Positions 25,700-42,145 of a DNA stretch of 42,330 bases are shown piece after piece; position 1 is the first letter of the stretch, and each line of letters begins with the position of its first letter. Source of the DNA: Methylobacterium sp. GTDB taxonomy: Bacteria; Pseudomonadota; Alphaproteobacteria; Rhizobiales; Beijerinckiaceae. Location: the NCBI RefSeq assembly GCF_019750675.1, contig NZ_JAIEOF010000100.1, positions 1-42,330 on the forward strand, in the 5' to 3' direction. A program made the translations under genes and the position numbers. The notes beneath the pieces are model-generated. The model saw only the letters and a program-made list of their open reading frames with translations, ran no database searches and was not told the origin of the DNA.

Positions 25700-25840
25700 A
25701 AGAGCGGAGGCTTGCGGCTCGCTACGAGCCAACTCGCGGTGACTTCGAAGCAAGCGTCCGCTTTATCAATTCGCGCACCCCAAAGCTGACAGGCCGAAAA
25801 CCACCCGACCCGGTCGTCGAAAGGACGGGCGGGTTCCGAC

Positions 25841-27418
25841 CGAGGCTGTGTCAAAAGTCCCTTCTGAGATAGACTTGCGGCCTCATCTGCGGAGGCCAGC
25901 ATGCGTCGGTTCGTCGAAGGGCAGGATCGTCGGCAGTCCTGGTTGCTGCCCAGTTCGCTGGACGATTATGTCACCGCGGACAATCCGGTTCGGGTGATCG
26001 AGGCCTTCATCGACGAACTCGATCTCGGCACCCTCGGCTTCACCCGCTTCGAGCCCGCGGCGACGGGACGGCCTGCCTATGATCCGGCCACGCTTCTGAA
26101 GCTCTACCTCTATGGCTACCTCAATCGGGTCCCGTCGAGCCGGCGGCTTGAGCGGGAGGCGCAGCGCAACATCGAGGTGATGTGGCTGACTGGCCGCCTG
26201 GCTCCCGATCACAAAACGATCGCCAACTTCAGGCGCGACAACGGACCTGCGATCCAGGCGGCCTGTCGGCAGTTCGTGGTGCTGTGCCGCGATCTGCATC
26301 TCTTCGCTGGGGCAACCGTCGCCTTGGACGGGTCGAAGTTCAAGGCGGTCAACAACCGGGACCGCAACTACACCGTGGCCAAGGTCGCCAAGCGCCTGGA
26401 ACAGGTGGAGGTCAGCATCGCCCGCTATCTCGCGACGCTCGACCGGGCGGACAGGGAAGGCAGCGACGTTCCCGAGGCGCGGACGCAGCGCATCGGCGAG
26501 AAGATTGCCGCTCTGCGCCGACAGATGGCCTTCCTGCGCGAGATGCAGGCGCAGGTGGAGATCGCGGACGACGGGCAGGTCTCCCTGACCGACCCGGACG
26601 CCCGCTCGATGGCGACGAGCGGGCGCGGCACCGGCATCGTCGGCTACAACGTCCAGATCGCCGTCGATCCCGAGCATCATCTCGTCGTGGCCCATGAGGT
26701 CGTCAACGAGGGCCACGACCGCACCCAGCTCGTGCCGATGGGCGGTCAGGTCAGACAGGCCATCGGTGAGCAGGAGATCACAGTTCTGGCCGATCGCGGC
26801 TACTACAACGGCGATGAGGTTCTGGCCTGCGAAGGCACGGGCGTCCTGCCGGCCATGCCGCGGGCCGACACGTCGGGTCGGGCCAAGAAGGGGCTCTTCG
26901 TGCGCGCCGCCTTCGTCTACGATGCCGCGGCCGATCACTACGTCTGCCCCGCCGGCGCTGTGCTGACGAAGTCCAACGCGCGCTCCGATCGACACGGTGA
27001 CATCGACCACTACCGCAACCTGGACGCCTGTCATGCCTGCGCGACGCGGGCGCGCTGCACGCCCGAGAAGGTCAAGCGCTTCAAGCGCTGGAAGCACGAG
27101 GCGGTGCTGGAGGCCATGCAGAGGCGGCTCGATGCCATGCCCGATGCCATGGCGGTCCGGCGCGCCACGGTCGAGCATGTCTTCGGGACGCTGAAAGCCT
27201 GGATGGGCAGTACGCCCTTCCTGACGAAGGGCCTGAAAGGCGTGAGAACCGAGATGAGCCTCGCCATCCTCGCCTACAACGTGAAGCGGATGATCCGCCT
27301 GTTCGGTGCAACTTGGCTCATCCAGGCCATTCGAGCCTAAAGCTGCCCGCTGCGCCGCCGTCGTCATCCTGCTGATCGATGCTGGCGGCCACGATCAATG
27401 CGTTTTGACACGGCCTCG
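25841..27418 (+). mobile_element. IS1182-family insertion sequence
   Basis: A complete-looking element of about 1.58 kb. The left end CGAGGCTGTGTCAAAA (25841-25856) and right end TTTTGACACGGCCTCG (27403-27418) are inverted repeats with one mismatch, enclosing a full transposase gene. I could not settle an exact target duplication; the flanks share only a short CGA/CGACC-like string. It sits at the border between the sulfur island and the Tn7-like module. Confidence 0.85.
25901..27340 (+). CDS. IS1182-family transposase
   Basis: A 479-residue transposase. The N-terminal part (RQSWLLPSSLDDYVTADNPVRVIEAFIDELDL, then YDPATLLKLYLYGYLNRVPSSRRLEREAQRN) is the DUF772-type domain of this family. Catalytic acids are seen in VALDGSKFKAVNN (first Asp), VLADRGYYNGDE (second Asp) and VEHVFGTLKAWMG (Glu). 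A cysteine cluster (CPAG, CHACATRARC) lies between. The gene is full length with no frameshift and is flanked by inverted repeats, so the element may be active. Confidence 0.93.
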   Translation: MRRFVEGQDRRQSWLLPSSLDDYVTADNPVRVIEAFIDELDLGTLGFTRFEPAATGRPAYDPATLLKLYLYGYLNRVPSSRRLEREAQRNIEVMWLTGRLAPDHKTIANFRRDNGPAIQAACRQFVVLCRDLHLFAGATVALDGSKFKAVNNRDRNYTVAKVAKRLEQVEVSIARYLATLDRADREGSDVPEARTQRIGEKIAALRRQMAFLREMQAQVEIADDGQVSLTDPDARSMATSGRGTGIVGYNVQIAVDPEHHLVVAHEVVNEGHDRTQLVPMGGQVRQAIGEQEITVLADRGYYNGDEVLACEGTGVLPAMPRADTSGRAKKGLFVRAAFVYDAAADHYVCPAGAVLTKSNARSDRHGDIDHYRNLDACHACATRARCTPEKVKRFKRWKHEAVLEAMQRRLDAMPDAMAVRRATVEHVFGTLKAWMGSTPFLTKGLKGVRTEMSLAILAYNVKRMIRLFGATWLIQAIRA

Positions 27419-27566
27419 ACCCAACCCGGCCGTACAATCATCTGTCGCGCGTTCTCAGAAGTGGATCCAGAGTGACGCACTGCATGGCGAGGTCCGTCGA
27501 AGTCGGGGCTTGCGGTGCTGTAGGAGCTCGCAGGAGAACTAAGGCTTACACAGGCCTCAGGCATGC
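27419..27566. other. gap between IS1182 element and tniQ
   Basis: A 148-bp stretch with no supported gene, downstream of both the insertion sequence and the minus-strand tniQ. It could hold the tniQ-distal part of the transposon, but no repeated TnsB-type site is visible. Confidence 0.4.
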
Positions 27567-29426
27567 CTAGGATTGCAGCGCCTGCGACTTCTGCATTCGT
27601 CGCTGGAGGTCTGACAGTACTTTGCTTCGGCACCACACCGCCGTCGTCTTTCTGGCCCTCGTTTCGAAGACCGGCTCGATGCCGGCTTGATCCAGGGCTT
27701 CCCTCATCCAACGGATGCCGGTTCCGATCTCCCTGGCGAGCGCGCCTGTGGTTGCGTAGGTGGCCTCGAAGGCAGCCAATGCATCCTCCTTGACCAAGAT
27801 CTCTCCACAGGGCGACATGACTCCTCTCAGTAGGCCCTTTCGAACTATCCGGCCGATGTTGTCGGTTGGGACCTTGATGCGTCGTCCAACTTGTTCAAGG
27901 GTGAGGCCACCGCCTGCCTGCGCACGCCGTGCAATCCTGATGTCCTGCGGATCGACGAGCAAACCAGCAAACCCGGGTGCATCGCGTAGGACCGCTTTGA
28001 CCTTCAGGTGTCCGGCAAGGATCATGGCGGCGCTACCTCGAACACCGTCAACTCTGGCGAACTTGCTGGCACGTGCGAGCGGGAGAAGTTCGATCGGAGT
28101 GACATCCACGATCGGCGCAGTACCGCGGAGCCGGTCTAAAACAGCAGTTATTTCGTCTCTGTCGAACACGTCCGTTTTCACACCTGATCGTCGATGAATC
28201 TCGGCCGGTAGTATGATTCGAGCCGAAACCAACATGTAGATCTGGCGCTTTGCCAGCCCAATCATGGCAGGTAGTTCATCTGCCCGAACGATTCGGGCGT
28301 GGATTGCACAAATTTCGTCGGCAACTTCCTGAGTAATGGCGAGTGGTGTTCCCCTTTTTGTTCGTTTAGGCCATGCGCCGAGTGCCTTGAGGTACCCTGC
28401 TGCAATCTGTGGTGAGCGTCCGCACCGTGTCGCGAGGTCTGAAAGGCTAAGCAGGGGCTGAACAGCCTGACGGTTCACCACCGAAGTCTTGTGAACCGGT
28501 CCTCGCGCTGCGGAATGTGTGAAAAGAGCCGCTCTGATGGCGTTCCCGCTGAAGCCCACTGGTAGCCGCTTGGCCCATAGATAGAGATATCCATAAACCT
28601 GTTCTGCGCCCCAGGCACCTAACCCAACGTGATCAGCTCGCGCCAATTTGTCTAGTAGAGCATCGAAGGCGTCAGGCCAGTCTCGGGCAATTTCGAAACC
28701 GGCTGAATGTATCTCGGCATGGCGTTCAGATGGAAACTTTGACAGGGCTCCAGTTGCTCCCCCTAGGAGAGCAACGCCCAAGCGTTCCATCGTATCGCAG
28801 GCCTCGTCCAGCGTTAGGCCGTCGAGAATCGGTACATCTACTCGAGGCATGCCGCCCAAACGTCCGACGACGTAGGCGTCCGCCAACGTTTCTCGACCCG
28901 CGATCGATATACCCTTGCAGGTCAGCAGAGAGTGGCCATTCCTGCAGCGGGTCAGCGAGCCCGCTTCCCAAGTGACGTCCGTTCCGCAAGTCATGCAAGT
29001 CGTGGCCAAGCGGGTACAATGTATTGGACACGTCTTGACTACGGCCACGTCCCACCAGAAGCGGCGATAGATGTTCCAATGTAGATGACGTCCCGATGGA
29101 GGCGCGCGAAGATCGTCCTCCCAGCAGCATGGACACCAGCGCCGTTCCGAGGTGGTCCAGTCATCCCTATGAAGTTTCTCACCCCCGAGTGTGACTCCCC
29201 GTTTCGTCACCTCGGCGGGTGTCCACCTTCGTACCATATCGTCGTCTCGGCCTAGGAAATCCAGGAAGGGTTTGGCCGTGCGCCCCTGAAGGATGTCGCT
29301 CAAGGTGTGTCCGGCGGTCCTGAGGCGCTCTCGGCTCCAAGGCTCGCCATTGATGTCGAAGGCGCGAAGTAAGTGCGCGGCCGCGGTCTCACCCTTCAAC
29401 ACGGGCGGGATAATGGTCAGGCGCAT
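27567..29426 (-). CDS. tniQ: TniQ/TnsD-like target-selection protein of a Tn7-like element
   Basis: A 619-residue protein. The ATG at 29426 is chosen because TAGGAGG lies 6 bases upstream; the track start runs into tnsC. The N-terminal TniQ domain is clear (MRLTIIPPVLKGETAAAHLLRAF, RRWCPCCWEDD, WWDVAVVKTCPIHCTRLATTCMTCG), with zinc-binding cysteines and histidines. The C-terminal roughly 350 residues contain several successive HTH-like stretches (LLSLSDLATRCGRSPQIAAGYLKALG; ELPAMIGLAKRQIYMLVSA; LTLEQVGRRIKVPTDNIGRIVRKGLL). That fits a TnsD-type protein recognising a fixed attachment site, rather than the short TniQ of CRISPR-guided elements. It is the last gene of the tns operon, 10 bp after tnsC. 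The target site is unknown. Confidence 0.87.
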   Translation of the reverse strand: MRLTIIPPVLKGETAAAHLLRAFDINGEPWSRERLRTAGHTLSDILQGRTAKPFLDFLGRDDDMVRRWTPAEVTKRGVTLGGEKLHRDDWTTSERRWCPCCWEDDLRAPPSGRHLHWNIYRRFWWDVAVVKTCPIHCTRLATTCMTCGTDVTWEAGSLTRCRNGHSLLTCKGISIAGRETLADAYVVGRLGGMPRVDVPILDGLTLDEACDTMERLGVALLGGATGALSKFPSERHAEIHSAGFEIARDWPDAFDALLDKLARADHVGLGAWGAEQVYGYLYLWAKRLPVGFSGNAIRAALFTHSAARGPVHKTSVVNRQAVQPLLSLSDLATRCGRSPQIAAGYLKALGAWPKRTKRGTPLAITQEVADEICAIHARIVRADELPAMIGLAKRQIYMLVSARIILPAEIHRRSGVKTDVFDRDEITAVLDRLRGTAPIVDVTPIELLPLARASKFARVDGVRGSAAMILAGHLKVKAVLRDAPGFAGLLVDPQDIRIARRAQAGGGLTLEQVGRRIKVPTDNIGRIVRKGLLRGVMSPCGEILVKEDALAAFEATYATTGALAREIGTGIRWMREALDQAGIEPVFETRARKTTAVWCRSKVLSDLQRRMQKSQALQS

Positions 29427-29436
29427 CGGCATCCTC

Positions 29437-30561
29437 CTACGAGACGTCGTCAGCGGGCGTCTTGTCTTCACCCATGCCAACCAGACGAGTGAGCGTGTCG
29501 AACTCGGCTTCCTTGATTTTCGGGCAAATCGAGATGTTCGGTACAAGGAAGGGATTGCGACGTGCGCCCACTTCGAAGATTTCCTCGAATACGAAGGCCA
29601 GGTGCTTGGTCTGATCGATGCAGGGGGCGCCCTGATCAATGGCGCGAAAGGCTGCCTTCTTGATTAGGTGCATCATGCGCCCAGTGTATCCCGACGAAGC
29701 CTTCAGCATGCGCTGGACCATGTCGGGGTCGGAGAGGCCGGAAGGGTCGGGGAATCCAAGTTTTGGCTCAACCAAGCTCAGGAATTTTTCGGCCTTCTTC
29801 ACACCGGGACCCGTGTGGTCCAAGGGCTTGATGGAAACAACTGCACGTCGTCGAACCAGTTGGAAATCTTCCTTGAGCACTTGCCTCAACCAGGGCATAC
29901 CCGAAAGTACGAGGCATATGGGCCGCGTGACTGCTCCGGGCGATAAAAGGGGATCTTCCGGGTTCGGGATGACGAGGTTTTTCAAGGTTTCTACCAAGGT
30001 TCGCCGCTCGTCGCTGGTGCGTCCCCGCAAAGTATGGTGAAATTCATCGATAATAAGGACGGAGACAAGCTGGGCATGCATCTGGCTTACAACACGGGAC
30101 CAGATGTCGTGTTCTCTGAGATTTGCGCTTAGATCATCTCCTGTCATAGATTTATACAGAGAAAGTCCCAAGGTTTTTAGGGTGCAGGGACTCGGCGCCT
30201 TGATGAAGACCAGCGGACGGACGGGACCCGTCTCGTCGCTAAACGGCGCGAGAAGCGAATTCTTCTGTAGCCGAGCAAGAAGGTGTGACTTCCCGGCTCC
30301 AGATGGTGCCGGAATGATGAGGCAATCTCCTTCGATCTCTGCCGCAACGTTGTCCAGCATTTGGTTGAAGCGAGCAACTCCATTGATAATGACGTTCGTG
30401 TTGATGTGAATGCTGTCGACGCTCTTTTTCCATGCCCGTCGTTCCAAGTCTTGAGAACTTGCGGCAACGGCAAATCGCTCGCGCAGCCTGGGGACGTCCT
30501 CTCGGAGCTCGGTGACCGTGACGTCAGGACGGAGGATCTTCGGATCGTTCACTTGCAGCAT
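29437..30561 (-). CDS. tnsC: TnsC/TniB-like AAA+ ATPase
   Basis: A 374-residue ATPase from the ATG at 30561 (AGGGG upstream, 10 bp after the tnsB stop). Walker A is in LIIPAPSGAGKSHLLARL and Walker B in LVSVLIIDEFHHTLRG; sensor-type LVLSGMPWLRQVL and the arginine-rich QLVRRRAVVSIKPL follow. In Tn7-like transposition this regulator bridges the target-bound TniQ/TnsD and the transposase. The gene is intact and in operon with tnsB and tniQ. Confidence 0.9.
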   Translation of the reverse strand: MLQVNDPKILRPDVTVTELREDVPRLRERFAVAASSQDLERRAWKKSVDSIHINTNVIINGVARFNQMLDNVAAEIEGDCLIIPAPSGAGKSHLLARLQKNSLLAPFSDETGPVRPLVFIKAPSPCTLKTLGLSLYKSMTGDDLSANLREHDIWSRVVSQMHAQLVSVLIIDEFHHTLRGRTSDERRTLVETLKNLVIPNPEDPLLSPGAVTRPICLVLSGMPWLRQVLKEDFQLVRRRAVVSIKPLDHTGPGVKKAEKFLSLVEPKLGFPDPSGLSDPDMVQRMLKASSGYTGRMMHLIKKAAFRAIDQGAPCIDQTKHLAFVFEEIFEVGARRNPFLVPNISICPKIKEAEFDTLTRLVGMGEDKTPADDVS

Positions 30562-30571
30562 GGGTTGGCCC

Positions 30572-32785
30572 CTACTCGGCGGTCCAGTTGTCGGGATCAT
30601 CGGCGTCGAACGCCTCGGCGCTTGGCACCGCCGACGAGGTCGACGCGTGCGCCTGCGCCGCAAAAACCGCAGGCAGGGCTACGGTTTGGCCATGGGAAGC
30701 GATGAACTGGCGGCCGCCTTGTCCAACACGCGCCGAAGCTCTCCCGCTTTCGGCCGAGTTCATCCGGGCAGACCTCGCCGGGCGCCGCGTACGCAGGCGC
30801 TCGACCCCATGGGCTTGATCGTCCTCTGCCTCCCCAGCGATGTCGAACATCAGGTCGTCCGCGTGCTCGCGGAACCAGTCGATATCGGTATCGACCAACC
30901 GTTGCGGCCTAACGCCGGCCTTTCGGCACTCGGCTCGAAGCAGCTCCATCGAACGGAAAAGGGTCGCACGTGCAACGCGCTGGCCCTCTCGAGTCATGCG
31001 TCGGGCCGTCCGGACAACGTCGCGCCACTCTGCAAGGGAGGTGCCGTCTGCCAGGGGATCAATGCAAGGGACCTTGATCCAGCCGACCCCTTCGTCGACG
31101 AGGACAAGGAGGTGACTGAGATCGGATGCATCGACCTTGACGAGGAATTCATCGCCGAAGTGGAAGCCTTTCCTGCGGCGGACTCCCCTCAATTCGTTCG
31201 ACTGATAGGTAAGGCCGAGGTAGGTGATTCCATCCCGTTGGATTGTTCTTGGCACGACCAATGCGATCAGTGGATCGAGGTCGTCGGCCGACGGCGGCAG
31301 GCGTACGCCCCAACCTCCCAGATCCTGCCAGCGTTGCAGGGGCGTGCGACCAAGCAAGCCGCCATGCTCACGATTGTGATAGATGTCGACGACCCATAAC
31401 GTAAAGTATTCGACGATTTGGGGAAGTGTCAGAGCAGCCAGACCGACGCTGTCGTAATCGCCCTTCTCGCGGACATCTCGAAAAGTCCGACCCGGTAGGT
31501 AGGCACAGAAATCGCGTGCAATCGTGCCAAGGACACGTTCGACTTTCCCCTTAAGGTGTGGCTTGCGCCGCGGCATGTAGCGGAGTTCGAACCGCAGTTG
31601 CCCGGCAGCTGCCTTCATCGAGCGGGAGTGGAATTCACGTCCATTGTCGAGTTTGACCACCTCGGGAATGCCGAACACAGGCCAAGCCGTCATGACTCGA
31701 ACGTTGGATAAGTCCTTCGGCAGCACCGCCATGCGCAGACAGTGCATGACCGACGTCCAAGACGGGCGTTCGTCGCTGATGTGAAATCCGACAATCATCC
31801 GGGTAGTGGCGCAGATCGCGATCGTAAGCCAGACGCGCTTCGTCCGCTTTTCCCTGCGACGCCGGTCCCGCGCCGGACTTCCATCGCTTTCCAAGACCAA
31901 TACGTCGAGGGGTGTATGGTCGATCTCGACGACCTCAAGCGGACGCGTTGACTGAGGAGCCCTTTGGACGTGCCTGAAATGCTGCTCCGCCGCCGCCTTG
32001 CCCTCTCGATGTCTGATTTGGTCGAACAGACTGACGTTCGCCTTCACCCACCGCCGAATGGTCATTCCGTCCGGCGTCTTCAACGCTATAACTTGTTTGT
32101 TGTTTCTACGCTCGATTTCACCTTGGATGAGATTGATGACTTGGCTCAAGGGAGGGCCGTTTAGTAGGAGCCAGTCCTCGCGTATCCGTTTCGCGATAAT
32201 GTGTTCGACTTCCGGGTCCAGGCGAAAACCCGTACGCCCCTTCCGATCATCCAACGGGATCAATGCCGCGAGAGACCTGCCTCCCTTGCGCCAGCGCCCG
32301 TACCATCCCTTGAGCGCGGAGCCGCTCCACCGTTCGAGCGGCACGTCGGCCGGATTGGAGCATTCATGCTCGATGGCCCGTTCGCGACGCTCGGCTGCGA
32401 CGCGCTGCGAAATATCGTCAAAACCTTGGGGAACCTTCGTATGAGTGCCCAAGGCGAAGCACTGATCGCAGGCCTGCATATAGTCCAGGCGCATCAATGC
32501 CACCTCCTGCTGATGGACGGTGAAGCTATCAATGCTGCGAAGAATATTGTCCTTGACAGCCTGAGGTAGTCCGTCAGTTAAGTCGGTAATCAGCTGTAGT
32601 CGTCTAGGCTCACCAAAGTAGAGCTCGGCGAGCTCAGCATGCGTCTTCGTGATCGAGACTGGTCGCGCTCCGAGAGTGCGTAGGGTCACGCCGCTTTCAT
32701 CGCGCGAGAGCACCTTGTGATACACGCCTTCGATGATGACGATGGCGTCTTCGTGCAGGCGGATTTGGCAGACGCTCATGCGCAT
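30572..32785 (-). CDS. tnsB: TnsB-like DDE transposase
   Basis: A 737-residue transposase (735 if the second ATG at 32779 is used). The N-terminal half carries HTH DNA-binding parts (GMTIRRWVKANVSLFDQIRHREGKAAAEQHF). The RNase-H core has its catalytic acids in VVEIDHTPLDVL (about D289), VVKLDNGREFHS (about D380) and LKGKVERVLGTI (about E416), and a Mu-type C-terminal barrel follows (LTYQSNELRGVRRRKGFHFGDEFLVKVD). It makes the 3'-end cuts and strand transfer. GGAGG sits 5 bases before the 32785 ATG, while the 32779 ATG overlaps the stop of the small upstream ORF (ATGA). Confidence 0.92.
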   Translation of the reverse strand: MRMSVCQIRLHEDAIVIIEGVYHKVLSRDESGVTLRTLGARPVSITKTHAELAELYFGEPRRLQLITDLTDGLPQAVKDNILRSIDSFTVHQQEVALMRLDYMQACDQCFALGTHTKVPQGFDDISQRVAAERRERAIEHECSNPADVPLERWSGSALKGWYGRWRKGGRSLAALIPLDDRKGRTGFRLDPEVEHIIAKRIREDWLLLNGPPLSQVINLIQGEIERRNNKQVIALKTPDGMTIRRWVKANVSLFDQIRHREGKAAAEQHFRHVQRAPQSTRPLEVVEIDHTPLDVLVLESDGSPARDRRRREKRTKRVWLTIAICATTRMIVGFHISDERPSWTSVMHCLRMAVLPKDLSNVRVMTAWPVFGIPEVVKLDNGREFHSRSMKAAAGQLRFELRYMPRRKPHLKGKVERVLGTIARDFCAYLPGRTFRDVREKGDYDSVGLAALTLPQIVEYFTLWVVDIYHNREHGGLLGRTPLQRWQDLGGWGVRLPPSADDLDPLIALVVPRTIQRDGITYLGLTYQSNELRGVRRRKGFHFGDEFLVKVDASDLSHLLVLVDEGVGWIKVPCIDPLADGTSLAEWRDVVRTARRMTREGQRVARATLFRSMELLRAECRKAGVRPQRLVDTDIDWFREHADDLMFDIAGEAEDDQAHGVERLRTRRPARSARMNSAESGRASARVGQGGRQFIASHGQTVALPAVFAAQAHASTSSAVPSAEAFDADDPDNWTAE

Positions 32786-32997
32786 GTCTGCCTCCGTCCA
32801 ATCACGCTTCTAGTTTGGCGCCGCTGACTGCTGTCCTGGAGACCCGTAGCAGCTTCGCTGGGGAGCGGCGCCGTACGAGCGGTTCGAAGTCGCCGCAAGA
32901 TTCGCTCGTCGCGTTGCGCATCAATGCGAAAGGGATCTCGGTGCCAACTGGGGAGCGAATCCTGGTAAGTGCCGAAGCGAAACGCTTGTCCTGGCAT
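32776..32997 (-). CDS. 73-codon ORF between tnsA and tnsB
   Basis: It starts 4 bases after the tnsA stop at an ATG preceded by AGAAGG and ends by ATGA overlap with the second tnsB ATG. The product (MPGQAFRFGTYQDSLPSWHRDPFRIDAQRDERILRRLRTART, then a basic tail) matches nothing I recognise; it is arginine-rich with a predicted short helix. The longer 88-aa track version begins inside tnsA. Tight packing on both sides argues that it is translated, perhaps as a DNA-binding accessory or simply to couple tnsB translation. It could still be a non-coding spacer. Confidence 0.45.
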   Translation of the reverse strand: MPGQAFRFGTYQDSLPSWHRDPFRIDAQRDERILRRLRTARTAPLPSEAATGLQDSSQRRQTRSVIGRRQTCA

Positions 32998-33001
32998 GGA
33001 T

Positions 33002-33688
33002 CTACCTTCTCTCAGTGGAACGTCGGATAAGAGCGTAGTCATCGAAGGGCCGTCCTAAATCAGCGAGCTCGGCTTCTCCGCGGGCCACAAGGGAGACGAT
33101 GGCTCGGAAAGCACGAGCCCCGAGGCTTGAGGCTGCCCGAAGTTCACGGACGCGGCCCAGGCCGCCAAAACGATCCAAAACCATCCGCATGGTATGCTGC
33201 TCCGTTTCGTCGACGACGAAGCTACGCTCGCTGGCAATCAGCGCCGCGTTCGCAACTCCGAGCGCGTCGATCTCGATCTCGGTCCAAAGTTCGAAGCTAT
33301 CGTAGCCGGCTGCTCGTGCTCCAACTTCGATGAGGGGGCGGAATTCATCCCAGCCAAGCTTGACCACCTTCTTCAGTGGTTTGACCTCGACGCATATTGA
33401 GCGCCCATCGTCGAGATCCACGGCGAAATCTGGCGTGTAGCTTCGTCTCCGGAAGCCATCGTGCCACCAAAAGGCGGTGGGTTCCTCCTGGTAGCGTAGG
33501 ACGGAATCGTCCTGCTCGAGTAGGATGATAAAGTCCCTAGCGAGCAGCCCCTCGTAGGCCACCATGCGGTAACCCATTCCTGGCTTGCCAGATGGAAATT
33601 CACCCGTGATGCAGTCGCGTCGTCCCGTGACTAGCTTGCGTGATGGGTTCGGCCGACCGACGTGACGGCTTTGCAGGCGGGGGGGCAC
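33002..33688 (-). CDS. tnsA: TnsA-like endonuclease
   Basis: A 228-residue protein starting at a GTG (GAGGG about 10 bases upstream). The N-terminal restriction-like nuclease domain shows the full catalytic set: YEGLLARDFIILLEQDDSVLRYQEEP (Glu), YTPDFAVDLDDG (Asp) and ICVEVKP (E-x-K). The C-terminal winged-helix part is MRMVLDRFGGLGRVRELRAASSLGARAFRAIVSLVARGEAELADLGRPFDDYALIRR. It cuts the 5' strands at the transposon ends, so the element should move by cut and paste. It belongs to the minus-strand operon with tnsB, tnsC and tniQ. Confidence 0.88.
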   Translation of the reverse strand: MPPRLQSRHVGRPNPSRKLVTGRRDCITGEFPSGKPGMGYRMVAYEGLLARDFIILLEQDDSVLRYQEEPTAFWWHDGFRRRSYTPDFAVDLDDGRSICVEVKPLKKVVKLGWDEFRPLIEVGARAAGYDSFELWTEIEIDALGVANAALIASERSFVVDETEQHTMRMVLDRFGGLGRVRELRAASSLGARAFRAIVSLVARGEAELADLGRPFDDYALIRRSTERR

Positions 33689-33723
33689 GGTAGGCAGCCC
33701 TCGATATCTCGACCCCAGGCCTG

Positions 33724-33978
33724 TCAGCCTCCTCTCGGCTGATATTCGGAGTTGATCTGAAACGGCGCGAACGCTGCCGATGGCAGCCCGATGTAGAAGC
33801 GTAGGTTAGCCGCCTGAGATCCTCCCGGAGAAGCGGGCTGATCTACTGCCCAGCCTTCGAATTCATACTCGTGGATCCACAGCACACAATGAGATTTTCG
33901 CCAAGCCTTCTGTATCGGCTGGAGAACCGAAAAACTGCTTGGCAGGAAGTCTGGTTTCGATATGCGCGACAGATTCAT
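33724..33978 (-). CDS. 84-aa hypothetical protein upstream of tnsA
   Basis: An ATG at 33978 with AGGAG 7 bases upstream opens an 84-residue ORF ending 35 bp before tnsA on the same strand. The sequence (LQPIQKAWRKSHCVLWIHEYEFEGWAVDQP, then NLRFYIGLPSAAFAPFQINSEYQPRGG) is not one I recognise. It may be the first gene of the tns operon. A 16-17 bp string around its ribosome binding site recurs before the small ORF at 34164-34244. Confidence 0.45.
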   Translation of the reverse strand: MNLSRISKPDFLPSSFSVLQPIQKAWRKSHCVLWIHEYEFEGWAVDQPASPGGSQAANLRFYIGLPSAAFAPFQINSEYQPRGG

Positions 33979-34163
33979 GGGAAGTCTCCTCGAAAGGTCG
34001 ACCTCACCTGCTGGTCAAAGCGCATCCATGCGCGCTCGTTGCGCGACGTTGCCGAATCTGGCAAAAACGTCGTCGCAGAGCGAACGCAATTGCGTCCGGC
34101 CAGCCGGGTGTGGTTCGAGATTTGGGTTTTGAGCGAGGGTTTCGAAGGCGCCCGCTCTTGACC

Positions 34164-34244
34164 CTACTGCGCTTGAGGAAGCACGCGATCCAAAGGATCG
34201 CGTGCTTCTTGCGTTGTAGGCGGATCGGTCTTGTTCCGTGACAT
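34164..34244 (-). CDS. 26-aa leader-like ORF containing a strong hairpin
   Basis: An ATG at 34244 preceded by GAAGGAGAATGATCACC opens a 26-codon frame, MSRNKTDPPTTQEARDPLDRVLPQAQ. It is too short for the ORF track. A 14-bp perfect hairpin (34178-34208) is embedded in it, so translation would melt the hairpin; this resembles leader-peptide control, but no attenuator is proven. It could also be a chance frame. Confidence 0.3.
   Translation of the reverse strand: MSRNKTDPPTTQEARDPLDRVLPQAQ
34178..34208. repeat. 14-bp perfect inverted repeat with 3-nt loop
   Basis: GAAGCACGCGATCC (34178-34191), AAA loop, GGATCGCGTGCTTC (34195-34208). It is the strongest hairpin I see in the mobile region. There is no T-run on either side, so it is not a standard terminator. 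A second hairpin, CACTCCTTC-TTC-GAAGGAGTG, lies at 34556-34576. Roles could include a transposon-regulator site, an RNA structure or an IS target. Confidence 0.6.
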
Positions 34245-35070
34245 GGTGATCATTCTCCTTCGAAAGATCGCGGGCTTTGGCCGAGGGTCGCTTTCAGAGC
34301 CGAACGTCTTTCCCGACACTGCTTCGGCCACCGAATGCTATCGGGAAGGAATGATGTGGGCAAGTCATCCCACTGCTCTCCATCCAAATGAAGGCTCGCT
34401 TGAAGCTGCAAAGTAAGATTTCTTCCTAGTCTTATAGACCATCGGATCGAGCCATTCACTCAAATCGAGCCAATTCTATTACCTCAGGTTGGTAAAAATC
34501 CTATCGGCCCGTTTCTTCTTGATGACTCTTCTGCGTGTGCGCGCAGCCACACCGCCACTCCTTCTTCGAAGGAGTGAAAATCTCTATTGATGCAATGAAG
34601 CACGCCAACAAACGTCGGGTTTACTGCCTCTGGCTCCTTTGTTGGGGCTGAGCCGACGCCTTTCTAGAAAACGTCTCGAGACACGTGCGCTTGCGATCAA
34701 GTTGTGCGCGCTTCGCTCCACTGGAACAGTCTCAAAATTTTGATCAGATATAAAAAATTGTGTATCAGATTATAAACTCGCGGTTGTACTACGGAAACTG
34801 TGTAGTTTTATTGCCGAATATCTATATTTACACGTCGTGATCGAACAGATTTGGGGGGCGAGATTTTCCGGCAGGCGGTCACAGCTTATCGTTCGGTGAG
34901 ATGTCCACCGTGTACAGTCGCTTCACTGGCTGATGAAAGGCCAAGCCTGTCTCACAATTCATCAAGAATTTGTAGGAGGATGCATTTCGAACTGATGAGA
35001 GTTCTGTCAGAGTATGCAACACGCTGCGGCCACTTCGGACGACAGACTCAACCAAGATGCTTCGTCACGT
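34245..35070. other. non-coding, AT-rich stretch upstream of the tns operon
   Basis: No supported gene. It holds the 9-bp hairpin at 34556-34576, a smaller CTGCG/CGCAG stem at 34531-34546, and an AT-rich patch at about 34730-34850 with two near-repeats (GATCAGATATAAA and TATCAGATTATAAA) and ACTAC/GTAGT around 34788-34806. This is where a Tn7-like end with TnsB sites might lie, but I cannot define a terminal TGT/ACA pair or a target duplication. Track ORFs here have no domain. Confidence 0.4.
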
Positions 35071-35712
35071 TCAATCGTGCGGTGAGCAGGCCGGATCTCG
35101 AGACCGAGATCTATTCGACTCGTCGACTTTTTCGGATCTAGGGCAAATCCGGACCATCGTCTCCGGAACCAGCGGGCTGTCGATATCAAGGACGAGGAGG
35201 CCATCACAAGCGAGGGACAGGACCGCGTCCACCGGCTCGATGGAAGATGTGTTAACGCAGGAAATAAGCGCCGAGATTGCCACTCCATCACTTGGTGCGT
35301 TTTGTAAGCGCATCAAGATTCTCAATCTATCCGCAGGTGGTACGATTTTCTTTCGCATCGACCATATTATTCTTGCATTACTCATCCTGGGTTCTTGGAT
35401 CACTGCGGATCTGCGAAGACAAATATCCACTTGATCTTCGAAAGCGGCCGGCAGCTCGAGCTCGTCTCGAACTCCGAGCAGACGGACAACTCCAGTGTCC
35501 ATCTCAACGATGAGATCGAGAATTCCGCTTGAAGCCGAGCCTGGTCCAGCTGTTATTCGTCGTACGGCGGCATCGAGCGTGAGCTGTATTAGTATGTCGC
35601 GATGCCAGCGTTGTACATAGAGGATAGGGGCTAAGGTCTTGCAGGATCTAAAGCCAGGCCTTTGTGTGATTAATTCCCGTCGCTGAGGTTCTTTTTGCCT
35701 TGGTGCAAACAT
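35071..35712 (-). CDS. TnsA-fold protein with degenerate nuclease site
   Basis: 213 residues from the ATG at 35712 (GGAG 9 bases upstream; the track start is a GTG). It parallels the TnsA of this window by eye. HRDILIQLTLDAAVRRITAGP aligns with ARDFIILLEQDDSVLRYQEEP, and ILDLIVEMDTGVVRLLGVRDE with PDFAVDLDDGRSICVEVKPL. ADRLRILMRLQNAPSDGVAISALISCV...VDAVLSLACDGLLVLDIDSPLVPETMVR aligns with the TnsA winged-helix tail. The Asp is kept, but E-x-K is replaced by G-V-R and the leading Glu is missing, so it is probably not a nuclease. It may be a DNA-binding regulator or end-recognition protein. The family link is my own alignment, not a database result. Confidence 0.5.
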   Translation of the reverse strand: MFAPRQKEPQRRELITQRPGFRSCKTLAPILYVQRWHRDILIQLTLDAAVRRITAGPGSASSGILDLIVEMDTGVVRLLGVRDELELPAAFEDQVDICLRRSAVIQEPRMSNARIIWSMRKKIVPPADRLRILMRLQNAPSDGVAISALISCVNTSSIEPVDAVLSLACDGLLVLDIDSPLVPETMVRICPRSEKVDESNRSRSRDPACSPHD

Positions 35713-36001
35713 GATGATCGGCTCCACACTCTCGTAAAAGCCGGCATCACAACGTTGCGCGAAGTCGACTATGCCATAGACAGGAACATATTTGCGATCT
35801 AGCTAGGTACTAATAGCCGAGAGTGCGGATCACCGCAAAGCAGGGACAATTTCTCGAAATGGCTATGGTGTAATGGTAGCGCCATATTGGCGTATTACAA
35901 GCTGAGATGCCAATGTCGGGCCTGTGGATTGCGGTGGTAAATTTGAGAATTACCCGACGTGCTATGTTTGCGTACTGCTTTTGATAGATTTTCGGTTTGA
36001 T
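35713..36001. other. intergenic, no supported gene
   Basis: About 290 bp with no convincing ORF. It contains ATGGTGTAATGGTAGCGCCA near 35876, which faintly recalls a tRNA D-arm, but no acceptor stem, anticodon arm or T-arm follows, so no tRNA is called. Promoters for the flanking minus-strand gene (35071-35712) probably lie here. Confidence 0.45.
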
Positions 36002-36436
36002 TCAATCTTCGATTGATAGTCGCCCGGCCGGTCTATCTTCTTTGTCTGCTACTTCGGCCAGCCAAGTGCGAACATCTTTAAGAGTTTCGGTCCTGCGTCC
36101 CAGCGCTGTCGCCCGTGCCAGAACACGGTCGAGCTCGTCTCGAACTGCAAGGTCTAGTGGTTTCGGTGCAAGCTCCATCTGAGATGCCCCGACATGCAAT
36201 TCGAGGGTCTCAAGCAGATCCAGGAGGTATGCTACCGCCGGCGGTGGACCCTCGTTAGACCAGCGGTTGACGCTGCGAAGCGAACTGCCGATCTCCTGCG
36301 CGAAACCGTCTTGCGTGCGGCCGAGCTCGCGCAGGCGCGCACGAAACTCAGCCGCAGACAATGGTGCGATGGAGCTTTGCGGTTTTCCAACCACAGTCGG
36401 TTCTTTCGGATCCTGTAATCTGCGAATGGAAGGCAT
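36002..36436 (-). CDS. HTH (XRE-like) DNA-binding protein
   Basis: A 144-residue protein with an HTH in the middle: FRARLRELGRTQDGFAQEIGSSLRSVNRWSNEGPPPAVAYLLDLLETL, the pattern of short XRE/Cro-type domains. The N-terminal 25 residues are probably flexible. The C-terminal 60 residues (LAVRDELDRVLARATALGRRTETLKDVRTWLAEVADKEDR) look like a helix-rich dimerisation segment. The start has only a weak ribosome binding site. It lies downstream of the FtsH-like/59-aa pair on the same strand and may regulate that module. Confidence 0.65.
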   Translation of the reverse strand: MPSIRRLQDPKEPTVVGKPQSSIAPLSAAEFRARLRELGRTQDGFAQEIGSSLRSVNRWSNEGPPPAVAYLLDLLETLELHVGASQMELAPKPLDLAVRDELDRVLARATALGRRTETLKDVRTWLAEVADKEDRPAGRLSIED

Positions 36437-36617
36437 GCTCGTCCGTTTCGCGAGAGCATCGTTCCTTTGTCGGCGCTTGTCACCAAGAGGTGCCAGCTCA
36501 AAACGTCGCTGTCGATTCGGTCGGCGACGATCTGATTGGAGCCGGCGAGCTTACGGCTTCATTCACGAACGAAGGGCGAACCAGTCGACAGGATGCGCCC
36601 AACCCGGCCCGTTATTC
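36437..36617. other. gap between HTH gene and 59-aa ORF
   Basis: A stretch of about 180 bp with no supported gene. Track ORFs through it are shadows without domains. It may contain the HTH gene promoter. Confidence 0.4.
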
Positions 36618-36797
36618 CTACCGAGGGTCCATTCGCTGTCTTAAAGCTTCAAACTCGATGCGACGCCGCAGGATCTCGGCTAAGCCCTCGATGACAGCCT
36701 CCCGGTCGCCGTCGAGAATTTTGCAAAAATCGTCGATGGCTTCCACCAGGGGCTGCAGTTCGCCGATATCGGGTTCTTCGAGAGGAAGCACGAACAT
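36618..36797 (-). CDS. 59-aa small protein coupled to the FtsH-like protease
   Basis: Missing from the ORF track. Its ATG at 36797 overlaps the TGA of the protease gene by one base (TGATG), a classic termination-reinitiation junction. The product, MFVLPLEEPDIGELQPLVEAIDDFC...ILRRRIEFEALRQRMDPR, is acidic at the start and then strongly amphipathic-helical, ending basic. I do not recognise a family. The overlap argues strongly that it is made together with the protease, as an adaptor, inhibitor or substrate. Confidence 0.6.
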   Translation of the reverse strand: MFVLPLEEPDIGELQPLVEAIDDFCKILDGDREAVIEGLAEILRRRIEFEALRQRMDPR

Positions 36798-38947
36798 CAG
36801 ACTTTCTCCGTTGCAACCGACGGTACGGACATCTCGGCTGAGTGCGCGTGGGTTGCTTGATCCCTTAAGATTCGGTCAAGGTCTCGTGCGGAGAGGTAGC
36901 CGACCTCGGCAAGTTCCGAAGCAATAGCCCGCAGCGCGGTCGAATGCGTTTTCAGTATTGCGCGGGCTCGCTCATAGGCCTCCCACAACCGATCGGCCAT
37001 CGAATCGACGATGCCCTTTGCGAGGAAGAGGTCACGTTCGGCGGGGTCGACGTGGAATAGTCCCAGTTTGCCGTAGCCGAACTGCAGATCCATGCAACGC
37101 ACGATCTTGGTCGCCTTGGCGAGATCGGAGTTTGGTCCGAGGCCGCTTCCGATCGAGGCTGCGCCGAACTCTATCTCCTCGGCCGCGCGTCCGGCCAGCA
37201 GAACCGCGAGTACCGCTTCGATCTCCGGGAGCGTTGCGGCACCATTCGGTAGCTGCGCGAACTGAGCTTCGCCGCCTTCGTCATGAAGCGATAGGTCAAC
37301 GATCGTGACTCGACCGAGCACTCGGCCCACGATTGCATGCCCTGCCTCGTGGATTGCGGCGCGCAAGCGCGCCTCCCTGGGCATTCCATCTCGGCCCTGA
37401 CGGATCTCCATCAGGACATCGTTGAGGTCGATCTGGCGCCCGGCACGACGCGCCGCGCCCCGAGCGCGGCGTACATACGCTTCGACATCGGCACCCGTTC
37501 TGCCACGGGCGGCAAGTGCGAGTGGCAGCAGAGAATCGCCGGCGAGGACGTTGGCCCCGAGATGATGACGGAAGATCTTCTCCAAGTTTGTCGTGTCAGG
37601 CTTTTCGATGACGATCTCTCGATCCAAGCGCCCTGCCCGCTTTACGGCCGGGTCGATCCTGTCGGGATGGTTCGAGGCTGCAACGACGATCACGCCCGGC
37701 CGCTCCTCGACGCCAGCAAGCAACTCGAGGAACAGGTTCACGATCTGCGTCCAGTATTGGACGTTCTCGCCACGGATCTGCGCGCGGTCTGAGATGCCGT
37801 CGAGCTCGTCGATAAATAGGATGCAGGGCGCCTGCGCCCGAGCTTGCGCAAACACCTTGCGGATTGCCTGCAAGGTGCCGGAGAGATAGTCCGATGCGCA
37901 CCACTCCGCGACGGATGTTGCTACAAGTGGAACGTGTGCCGACTTTGCCAATGCGCGTGCGAAGCTTGTTTTGCCAACACCGGGCGGACCCGATAAAAGC
38001 AATCCTCGGTTGTCTATGGCATCCCAGATCAAACCACCAGTGCGGTAGGCCTGCAAATCGGACGCAAGAGCCAGCCCCCAATCCTTCGCGGCGCCGTAAC
38101 CGTCGAGCTCTTCCAGTGTCACGCCCGTCTGGAGGTAATCAGCCTTGGCGGCCATGACCCTTGCAACGGCATCCAAACAGTTGTCCGGCGAGGCAGCTCC
38201 CCGGAGTGCTATCGGTAGATCGGAGATTTCGATGGTACGCACGAGATCAGGATCGATCCGCCGCGTAGGAATTCCACCGGTGACCGCTTCGATGACGAGG
38301 TCGAGCCCGCTCTGATCTAGGACCGGGAGCAAGATGCGATGCTCGGCAGCGCGCAGGAGATCTCGCGGCAGCTGGCGCTTCGGATCGGGGGCGACGCCGA
38401 CAATGGGAACCCGGGCATAGAGGGCCGAGGCCACCATGAGATTGCCGATTTCCGGTCTGTGATCTTTGTGGGAGCCATCGCGAACGAGCAGACCGCCCTG
38501 CTTCGGTCCCAGAACGACAGCTCTGTTGCCGTTCAGATCCATTGCCCGAACACCGGGTCTGAAGGCGCATCTCTCGAGAACGTCCCGCACCGGCTCGACG
38601 AGATCGGGCAGGTGGGTGGTGATGACGACCACCGGAGCCTCGCGTCGCAGGCGACGAACCAAACCGTCTTCCGCCTCAATGGCGCGCGCGACGAGCACGG
38701 CCACGGCAGCCAGATCCGCAGGGATGGGTACGTGCTCGGTCTTCCTCTCGCCTTCCGTCTTGGCGAGGATGAGTTCTACGGGGTCGTTGGTGGGTTCATC
38801 GCACTCGGAGTCTGGCTCGAAGTCCCGGGCGCCCTTAAGGTTTCTGCGCTCGCTCTGCGCCAAGGTTCGCAGGAAGGCTCGAGCCAGTGAATCGGCGGGT
38901 TCGGCGTCCGGATGCTGGTCCTGCGAGATTGTTGAGGTCGACAACAT
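36797..38947 (-). CDS. soluble FtsH-like AAA+ ATPase/M41 metalloprotease
   Basis: A 716-residue protein with GGGAG before its ATG. Residues 1 to about 300 are an unfamiliar N-terminal region (VVVITTHLPDLVEPVRDVLERC, AVVLGPKQGGLLVRDGSHKDHRPEIGNLM). The AAA+ domain follows: Walker A GPPGVGKTS about 320-328, Walker B CILFIDELDG about 375-384, and the arginine-finger/sensor region NHPDRIDPAVKRAGRLDRE. The M41 zinc protease has HEAGH about 533-537 and the third-ligand segment NSDLAKAT about 606-613. Housekeeping FtsH has two N-terminal membrane helices; none are visible here, so this should be cytosolic. Such proteins occur in accessory islands with unclear targets. It is coupled to a 59-aa ORF downstream. 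Confidence 0.87.
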   Translation of the reverse strand: MLSTSTISQDQHPDAEPADSLARAFLRTLAQSERRNLKGARDFEPDSECDEPTNDPVELILAKTEGERKTEHVPIPADLAAVAVLVARAIEAEDGLVRRLRREAPVVVITTHLPDLVEPVRDVLERCAFRPGVRAMDLNGNRAVVLGPKQGGLLVRDGSHKDHRPEIGNLMVASALYARVPIVGVAPDPKRQLPRDLLRAAEHRILLPVLDQSGLDLVIEAVTGGIPTRRIDPDLVRTIEISDLPIALRGAASPDNCLDAVARVMAAKADYLQTGVTLEELDGYGAAKDWGLALASDLQAYRTGGLIWDAIDNRGLLLSGPPGVGKTSFARALAKSAHVPLVATSVAEWCASDYLSGTLQAIRKVFAQARAQAPCILFIDELDGISDRAQIRGENVQYWTQIVNLFLELLAGVEERPGVIVVAASNHPDRIDPAVKRAGRLDREIVIEKPDTTNLEKIFRHHLGANVLAGDSLLPLALAARGRTGADVEAYVRRARGAARRAGRQIDLNDVLMEIRQGRDGMPREARLRAAIHEAGHAIVGRVLGRVTIVDLSLHDEGGEAQFAQLPNGAATLPEIEAVLAVLLAGRAAEEIEFGAASIGSGLGPNSDLAKATKIVRCMDLQFGYGKLGLFHVDPAERDLFLAKGIVDSMADRLWEAYERARAILKTHSTALRAIASELAEVGYLSARDLDRILRDQATHAHSAEMSVPSVATEKV

Positions 38948-39291: not shown

Positions 39292-39606
39292 CTACCGTTT
39301 CACGAACCCGATGTCGGCCGCGACTGCCCCGAGCTGTTCGGGCTCGCGCTCCTTCCGCTCGCTGTAGCGGTTCACGAGGTAGTCTGTCCGCGCGCGTGTC
39401 ACCCTCGTGAACTTCATTAGCTCCTCTGAGACATCCTCTACCCGGTCGTAGAGGGGGCCCGGCTTCATCCAGCCGTCGTCGAACTCCTTGTAGGCCATCG
39501 GCACCGAGGATTGGTTCGGGATCGTGACCATCCCGATCCAACGCCCGAGCACGCGCAGGCTGTTCACGGCGTTGAAGGACTGCGAGCCACCCGGAACCTG
39601 CACCAC
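39292..39606 (-). pseudogene. arsH: arsH C-terminal remnant
   Basis: The frame [86 protein letters not shown] matches the C-terminal third of ArsH, an NADPH-dependent FMN reductase linked to organoarsenical resistance. Intact ArsH is about 230-240 residues; here only about 100 remain. In the same frame an in-frame TAA lies a few codons upstream, so the 5' part is gone and the start given by the track is only a chance GTG. No other ars gene is nearby. It is a leftover of an earlier insertion or deletion. Confidence 0.8.
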
Positions 39607-40043: not shown

Positions 40044-40916
40044 CTACGGCTGAAGCTCTTCGATCCTCTGCTCGATGAAGGCGGCAAGCTCCTCGGGGGA
40101 GTGTCTGCGGGCGTCCACATACCCATCCGTGGCGCGTATCCCTTCAACGTCACCGTCACCCGTTCGGATGAGCATGATCCGGTCATGATCGCGACGGAGG
40201 ATGATATCGCGGATCGCGCGAAACTCGATGCCGCACCAGTCCTTTAGCTGGTAGTGACCGCTGATAAAAACGACGATGATCTTCGAGCGCTCGCCGTAGA
40301 TCTGCTGCAGGAGCAAATCCATGTTCGGCCGGGCGAGCTGACCCGGGTAGTTGCGGTCGTAGAAATATTTGTCTGGCCCTAGTCGGTGCTCAAGCTCGCG
40401 CGCAATCTTCTCGATTAGGTCTCGCTCTTCACCGGGGAATGACAGCGCTACGTCAAACACGTGGGTGCGGATATTTATACCTCGGCCGGGATGCCGCGCC
40501 CAGCCCGGAAGGGCGATGCCTTGGGCATTTAGAACAGCCGTCAGGTCCACGTCTTTCACCGCCCAGTGGGTGCGGTACATCTCCATCTTCGCGATATCGA
40601 GTTCGAACCTCAGCTTCTCCAGATCCTCAAAGCCAAGAAACGGATCAACGTCAAAAAGCTCATACGCAACCCGCACGTCGTTTTGCCGAACGATCACGTC
40701 GCGGATCATCCCGAACTTTGGGTCCAGCTCGTGACCTAATTCGTAGGCGAACACGGAAGGATAGCGTTTCAGCTCGGCGATAGCGGCTGCGTCTAGGTTT
40801 CCGTAGCGGTCCCGCAAGGCGTCCGAGGTATACTCATAGACGCAACGACCCTTTTCGATATTCCACGGGTCGCCGTTCCAGCTCTCGTCGTTGCCGGAGA
40901 CAAACAGGTTGTACAT
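40044..40916 (-). CDS. TIR-domain protein with novel N-terminal domain
   Basis: A 290-residue protein with GGAAGG 6 bases before the ATG. The C-terminal TIR domain starts at VFDVALSFPGEERDLIEKIARELEHRLG (about residue 153). It continues through YFYDRNYPGQLARPNMDLLLQQIYGERSKIIVVFISGHYQLKDWCGIEF, with the probable catalytic Glu near residue 231, and ends in YVDARRHSPEELAAFIEQRI. Bacterial TIR domains typically hydrolyse NAD+ or make signalling nucleotides on infection. Residues 1 to about 145 form a separate domain (MYNLFVSGNDESWNGDPWNIEKGRCVYEYT, then HWAVKDVDLTAVLNAQGI) that I do not recognise, perhaps the sensor. It is divergent from an Abi_C-type gene, so a two-gene defence unit is plausible. 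Confidence 0.82.
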   Translation of the reverse strand: MYNLFVSGNDESWNGDPWNIEKGRCVYEYTSDALRDRYGNLDAAAIAELKRYPSVFAYELGHELDPKFGMIRDVIVRQNDVRVAYELFDVDPFLGFEDLEKLRFELDIAKMEMYRTHWAVKDVDLTAVLNAQGIALPGWARHPGRGINIRTHVFDVALSFPGEERDLIEKIARELEHRLGPDKYFYDRNYPGQLARPNMDLLLQQIYGERSKIIVVFISGHYQLKDWCGIEFRAIRDIILRRDHDRIMLIRTGDGDVEGIRATDGYVDARRHSPEELAAFIEQRIEELQP

Positions 40917-41311: not shown

Positions 41312-42145
41312 ATGGCCCAGATACCGCCTTCCATCATCGGCACCGCCGCCCCTGTTCTCGCGGAGAGGTACACGCACTCGGAACTCAACTCCCTGTTCAT
41401 GGCGAACAGCTTCCCGGGTGACCCGCCGGAGGGTAATAAGGAGAAGAAGTGTCTTGATTGGCTGCGGCGCGGGAACCATCGTCTGGCAGATCCTCTAGCG
41501 TCGTTCGGGCGCTTAATTGCCGAGTTTATGGATACGGAGCAGAGCATTCCGTACGCCAGTTCATGGTCGGCTCCGCGCGAGGAAAAGCCGGACCCGCGTC
41601 AGTTTCTGGCCTCGGCGCTGGATAGGGAAGGTCTTAGCTATCAGCGCGGCGGAATGATCCTTGGCGCTCATCTCTCAGGCCCTTCACGGTCTTTAGCCGA
41701 ACGTCTCCGTAGCGAGGGCATCAAAGCCGTTGAGGATGAATACCAGCGAGCTTACGCCGCTATCGGGTCCGACTCGCGGGCGGCGCTGACGGCAGCGTGC
41801 GCAATCCTCGAAAGTGTGTGTCGCACCTATCTGGAAAGCGCCGGTATCGAGCCACCGAAGATGCGTGGCCTTCAGGCGGTTTGGCCGGAGACCGCACGCC
41901 ATCTAGGGTTGAACCCGGCTGCCGTCGCCGACGATGACATAAAGCGCATTCTTCAGGGCCTTTACAGCCTAGCGGATGGAATTGCCGCGCTTCGGACCCA
42001 TGAAGGGTCTGCCCACGGTAAGGGTGATACTGAGCAGCGTCGATACAATATCGAGCCACGGCATGCTCGACTTGCGGTTCATGCTGCGCATACGATGGCT
42101 TTATTCGTTATGGAAACTTGGTCGGCAACATCGCGTAGGCATTAA
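41312..42145 (+). CDS. abortive-infection (Abi_C-type) protein
   Basis: A 277-residue protein; no good ribosome binding site precedes the ATG at 41312, so the start is uncertain. The C-terminal roughly 120 residues match the Abi C-terminal domain: ALTAACAILESVCRTYLESAGIEPPK, LLGLYSLADGIAALRTHEGSAHGKGDTE-like segment, then ARLAVHAAHTMALFVMETW. The conserved LR...GSAHG stretch is characteristic. The N-terminal half has no clear domain. Such proteins occur in abortive-infection and related defence genes; mechanism unknown. It faces away from the TIR gene. Confidence 0.75.
   Translation: MAQIPPSIIGTAAPVLAERYTHSELNSLFMANSFPGDPPEGNKEKKCLDWLRRGNHRLADPLASFGRLIAEFMDTEQSIPYASSWSAPREEKPDPRQFLASALDREGLSYQRGGMILGAHLSGPSRSLAERLRSEGIKAVEDEYQRAYAAIGSDSRAALTAACAILESVCRTYLESAGIEPPKMRGLQAVWPETARHLGLNPAAVADDDIKRILQGLYSLADGIAALRTHEGSAHGKGDTEQRRYNIEPRHARLAVHAAHTMALFVMETWSATSRRH

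Follow-up and report, generated by a model that had tools for sequence, protein, structure and literature searches.

A soluble FtsH-type protease and its coupled small gene

The window, by which we mean the whole 42,330-nucleotide stretch of Methylobacterium DNA that was analysed, carries on its minus strand a single open frame (36797..38947) encoding a 716-residue protease of the AAA+M41 (FtsH) type. Pfam identified an AAA domain (PF00004, E 1.2e-32, residues 316-448) and a Peptidase_M41 domain (PF01434, 64.6 bits against a cut-off of 29.9, residues 524-693). The AAA module, taken as residues 314-448 (37604..38008, minus strand), contains Walker A, Walker B and R437/R440, and the M41 domain (36869..37378, minus strand) contains the HEAGH motif (37351..37337, minus strand) and D608. 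Residues 1 to approximately 300 match no Pfam family, which bears out the proposal of the first-pass annotation that the protein has a new N-terminal region of roughly 300 residues. The same annotation described the protease as lacking the membrane helices of FtsH, and this too was upheld: no transmembrane helix was detected in the protein, the highest 19-residue Kyte-Doolittle mean being 1.57, and the N-terminal domain is soluble in the structural model. The AlphaFold2 model (pLDDT 85, pTM 0.78) places a confidently modelled, soluble alpha/beta plus helical domain (residues 77-275; 38123..38719, minus strand) ahead of the AAA and M41 domains, in that order, and its top Foldseek matches are FtsH structures. 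A weak profile match (hhalign 26%) hints that this N-terminal domain may derive from an AAA fold in degenerate form.

Walker A and B, both arginine-finger positions (R437 and R440), the HEAGH motif and the third zinc ligand, D608, are all intact, and residues H533, E534, H537, D608, K326, D380, E381, R437 and R440 show no variation across 42 relatives. Since the zinc ligands, Walker motifs and arginine positions are conserved, the protease is catalytically complete and should be active. It resembles FtsH/HflB, YME1 and AFG3L2 in fold, in catalytic motifs and in the order of the AAA and M41 domains, but differs from all three in lacking membrane helices, in having an unrelated N-terminal domain of ~200 ordered residues and a coupled small gene, and in being accessory and mobile. 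The NCBI FtsH model (TIGR01241), for which the cut-off is 600 bits, aligns over residues 314-689 and gives it a score of 188.8 bits. In a sister group (L036 and other Rhizobiaceae plasmids), a pair of neighbouring genes encodes the AAA and the M41 part separately, with the annotations ATP-binding protein and ATP-dependent Zn protease, respectively. The open-access literature on soluble FtsH yielded nothing relevant. Even if it turns out to be transposon cargo, the protease stands for a soluble branch of the FtsH fold that is widespread, apparently has no name and comes with a conserved coupled partner. In the window's own assembly (G000, 95.9% complete) no canonical membrane FtsH was found, only a weak M41 fragment on C137; the absence probably reflects an assembly gap.

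The gene that follows the protease (36618..36797, minus strand) encodes a 59-residue protein, our type A family, that is modelled as a two-helix hairpin (pLDDT 85). The overlap with the protease stop codon noted in the first-pass annotation (TGATG) was confirmed, the two frames sharing one base, and a GGAG sequence is located ~9 nt upstream of the small gene's start. A homologue with the same start point is present in 13 of 13 members of the window's protease clade (the window itself, L002, L003, L034 and L040-L048), and it is also retained at this start in an interrupted copy from Methylorubrum extorquens AM1 (L033). In this AM1 megaplasmid copy (L033:6000-9750) an insert with a 436-aa open reading frame on the other strand splits the protease gene into two parts, yet the small gene is intact. 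In a Bosea plasmid the small gene is annotated as a hypothetical protein. Pairwise dN/dS values range from 0.07 to 0.49, are mostly 0.1-0.25 and fall below 0.5 in all measurable pairs, and variable sites are distributed 26/18/47 over the three codon positions. The shared start across the clade, the low dN/dS and the third-position variation together argue that this open reading frame did not arise by chance, and the small gene is, judged from its substitution pattern, under purifying selection. A second kind of coupled small protein, 68-83 aa long, follows 12 more distant proteases (L057, L063, L065, L066, L069, L072, L078, L081, L088, L094, L146 and L147), and most examples of it end in a VVxFP-like motif. 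Homology between the two kinds of small protein was not detectable by hhalign (0.1%), but the arrangement of a protease with a coupled small gene recurs. A toxin-antitoxin relation between the two genes would be conjectural, what was observed being their coupling and conservation.

Tn7-like genes and the HTH gene of the window

Downstream of the protease and its partner lies a minus-strand row of genes (36436..27567) for an HTH protein, a degenerate TnsA, TnsA, TnsB, TnsC and TniQ. The last four form the core of a Tn7-like element in the usual order (33688..27567, minus strand). The TnsA-type endonuclease (33002..33688) falls 0.3 bits under the Pfam cut-off (PF08722, E 1.2e-5) and exceeds the cut-off in a second profile comparison. 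It is followed by a TnsB-type transposase (30572..32785; rve and Mu-transpos_C domains), a TnsC/TniB-type ATPase (29437..30663; TniB, E 3.8e-15) and a TniQ-type target selector (27567..29639; TniQ, E 4.6e-8). The window therefore has all four core genes of Tn7-like elements in order, but differs from known elements in the addition of the HTH gene, the degenerate TnsA, the protease and the small protein upstream of tnsA. Beside tniQ, 29-bp inverted repeats (76% complementary) enclose an open reading frame of ~490 codons (25828-27431) that, when read on the minus strand, has no Pfam match; this repeat-bounded unit is probably an insertion sequence.

The 218-aa open reading frame at 35071..35727 (minus strand) also has no Pfam match. 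When profiles of its family and of tnsA were built separately and compared by hhalign, they aligned over their full length (probability 99.6%, E 5e-24), identifying the protein as a degenerate TnsA. By eye, its PD-(D/E)xK nuclease residues are lost: where the window's TnsA has its EVK motif this protein has GVRDE, and it no longer has the FES/E site. In many distant loci, too, such a degenerate TnsA gene immediately precedes the protease, whether tnsB is present or not. The tns operons of L113 and L154 contain additional TnsA-like genes other than the adjacent partner of tnsB; duplication and decay of TnsA seem to have happened repeatedly in these Tn7-like elements.

The first-pass annotation had joined the protease, the small protein and the HTH gene into a trio that might constitute a regulated proteolysis or defence module. 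The HTH gene (36002..36436, minus strand) is real, with a weak match to HTH_3 that lies under the Pfam cut-off (E 4e-4), and it sits outside the interval 36618-38947 to which the trio had been assigned. In each of the eight loci with both genes, the HTH gene and the adjacent degenerate TnsA lie on the same strand, which is that of tnsA wherever tnsA is in reach; in L003, L041 and L044 it is opposite to that of the protease. Moreover, in L108 and L122 the HTH gene and the degenerate TnsA stand in a row with tnsA-tnsB-tnsC-tniQ and no adjacent protease. We rejected the HTH gene as a third member of the protease system because it shares the strand of tnsA and occurs in the absence of an adjacent protease. 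The HTH gene, while indeed a neighbour of the protease pair, belongs with the Tn7-like module; what stands of the trio is the protease with its conserved coupled partner. An AAGGAAC box is present upstream of the HTH gene (36461..36467, minus strand) and recurs 9-165 bp upstream of it in seven of the eight loci, L108 and L122 among them. An array of TnsB sites was considered and rejected since the box is not clustered elsewhere, and for the same reason we read it as a possible HTH operator, which would fit autoregulation of the HTH/tns operon.

Linkage of the protease with tns genes

Among 97 mapped protease loci, drawn from the source organism's family, the wider order and plasmids, tnsB lies within 12 kb (<=12 kb) of the protease in 32, about a third. 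In every one of these 32 loci the protease is found on the tnsA side, 26 times codirectional and six times divergent; by our estimate the mapped stretches make detection on this side about twice as likely, a bias that does not account for 32 of 32. Across 52 genomes of the source organism's family, 18 of 43 TnsB matches lie <=10 kb from a protease locus, compared with 0.37 expected under random placement (P ~3.5e-26). In 11 loci the gene order is degenerate TnsA, (DUF6634), protease, TnsA, TnsB, TnsC, TniQ. The tns-linked copies are spread over the major groups of the protease tree, requiring 16 changes versus 26.2 with shuffled labels, and the link has therefore been made or kept many times. 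L059 and L061 have in common a block that starts ~150 bp ahead of the protease and extends past tniQ, and the sequences flanking it are unrelated on both sides.

The linkage is partial. Some two thirds of the protease loci lack a tnsB at <=12 kb, and there are many complete tns operons in the same genomes with no protease nearby. In L055 the protease matches that of L083, which is without tns genes, and the tns genes match those of L060; this mosaic indicates that recombination can join the protease to different tns genes, which counts against strict co-inheritance. L055 and L083 were also considered as a filled and an empty site, an interpretation that we rejected given that their common sequence ends before the protease stop codon. 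Searches for near DNA matches of the protease module in plasmids returned none. Transposon ends, meaning terminal inverted repeats with TnsB sites and a 5-bp target duplication around the protease, were sought through clustered 16-17-mers, through inverted repeats and by comparing upstream with downstream sequence in nine relatives. Nothing convincing emerged, and neither the window nor the sequences downstream in the nine relatives, some of whose contigs end too early, had such repeats, so that a place of the protease inside the element is putative. Its position just upstream of the tns genes in about a third of copies suggests that it may be part of a Tn7-like element's own machinery or of its cargo.

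A possible role in transposition and its alternatives

Our tentative preference is that the protease and its 59-residue hairpin protein form an accessory module of Tn7-like elements in Hyphomicrobiales that acts on transposition proteins in the manner of ClpX. This role is proposed from the gene neighbourhood, with rather less than even confidence, and the substrates are putative. The anatomy of the protease speaks for an ATP-driven machine that degrades cytosolic proteins and has dedicated means of selecting them; the steps that follow are all conditional. The protease would form a hexamer by analogy with other FtsH proteins, the hairpin partner would be made by translational coupling with it, and the N-terminal domain and the small protein might choose or gate substrates. 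If, as the neighbourhood suggests, these substrates are components of the transposition complex, the protease would dismantle or clear TnsA/TnsB/TnsC assemblies once productive transposition is over, or apart from it, a task ascribed to ClpX in Mu and CAST elements, and the degenerate TnsA could be an adaptor that marks or delivers TnsB/TnsC assemblies to it. As a precedent, a type I-F CAST selection in E. coli showed ~200-fold lower propagation upon deletion of clpX, and disassembly of the post-transposition complex has been hypothesised to be the task of ClpX (PMC12326709). The likeness would be one of functional analogy alone: an AAA+ machine that disassembles transposase complexes, as proposed for ClpX in Mu and CAST transposition (PMC12326709). 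ClpX, however, is a host unfoldase from another AAA clade, whereas the gene for the protease lies next to the transposition genes. A more specific proposal gives a family of Tn7-like transposons an AAA+ protease module of their own, made up of the degenerate TnsA as adaptor, the soluble FtsH-type protease and the coupled hairpin protein, which would dismantle or limit the TnsABC complex as a dedicated, element-borne counterpart of ClpX; we consider this somewhat unlikely.

The proposed need for host ClpX gives practical weight to the question of how Tn7-like and CRISPR-associated transposition complexes are disassembled. If our preferred reading is true, an AAA+ protease encoded by the element next to tnsA, together with a degenerate TnsA, would make disassembly directly testable in a natural system. 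We found no paper in the open-access literature that joins FtsH with Tn7-like elements and cargo, and term searches of the main text of two surveys of Tn7-like elements gave no mention of FtsH or of such a peptidase. The novelty of the locus resides in an FtsH-fold protease that has no membrane anchor, has a coupled partner and is linked to transposition genes.

Close behind comes defence, which we regard as distinctly possible: the protease and its small partner would be an anti-phage or anti-plasmid system carried as cargo on Tn7-like elements, in which the N-terminal domain or the small protein senses infection, the protease degrades a host or phage target, and the small protein may keep the protease silent. 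Upstream of the protease, the window encodes a TIR-domain protein (40916..40044, minus strand) and an AbiJ-like (Abi_C) protein (41312..42145, plus strand), both likely defence genes, and many defence systems are known on Tn7-like elements (PMC8649781). The distribution of the protease is patchy, and the best PADLOC resemblance of its AAA part is to IetA. In L040 (10112-14092), and in the same block of L041, there is an IetAS-type pair, consisting of an AAA ATPase and a large S8 subtilase and headed by a 128-aa DNA-binding-like protein, immediately after the protease and its small gene. The block of protease, small gene and IetAS lies 33 kb from the tns genes in G270, as cargo would; in G147 it is about 5 kb from them. 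The protease is similar to IetAS in joining an AAA ATPase to proteolysis on mobile DNA but is a zinc M41 enzyme fused in one chain, whereas IetAS uses a separate S8 subtilase; the gene downstream of the window's protease encodes the 59-aa protein, and in L040 and L041 IetAS is a separate pair. No PADLOC model covers the protease or its partner, and neither the pairing with a degenerate TnsA nor a fixed tnsA-side place across deep divergence (26 of 32 codirectional) would be expected of general defence cargo. The defence element of the first-pass proposal keeps some ground from the TIR, AbiJ-like and IetAS neighbours, but statistically the protease is associated most strongly with Tn7-like transposition genes.

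It is improbable, in our estimation, that the protease is a general housekeeping or regulatory enzyme of mobile DNA with the small protein as its adaptor and with no direct role in transposition, removing, for example, a repressor to induce conjugation or excision. The many copies on plasmids and islands without tns genes, and the DUF6634, metallophosphoesterase or PolB-type exonuclease neighbours of these copies, are in its favour, but it leaves the strong linkage to tnsA/tnsB and the TnsA-like partner unexplained.

Tn7 inserts downstream of glmS, and a target gene of this kind is expected on the tnsA side and codirectional with tnsA. That the protease gene is such an attachment site, outside the element, in which case the neighbourhood would say nothing of its function, is the least probable reading: it agrees with the tnsA-side, mostly codirectional position and with the end searches, which placed no transposon end beyond the protease, but is made less likely by the six of 32 linked loci with an oppositely oriented protease and the 11 in which it is sandwiched between a TnsA-like gene and tnsA, and it sits poorly with the L059/L061 protease-to-tniQ block, whose flanks differ on both sides, and with a protease that is itself accessory, unlike the usual attachment genes.

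Two minor observations concern the surroundings of the protease. DUF6634 (PF20339), a calcineurin-like phosphoesterase and a PolB-type 3′-5′ exonuclease are recurring neighbours in L034, L035, L046-L049, L166, L167 and L169. Upstream of the protease, the window contains a C-terminal remnant of arsH (39292-39606, minus strand; positions 134-219 of the NCBIfam ArsH model), longer copies of which are present in relatives (248 aa in L040 and 212 aa in L044).
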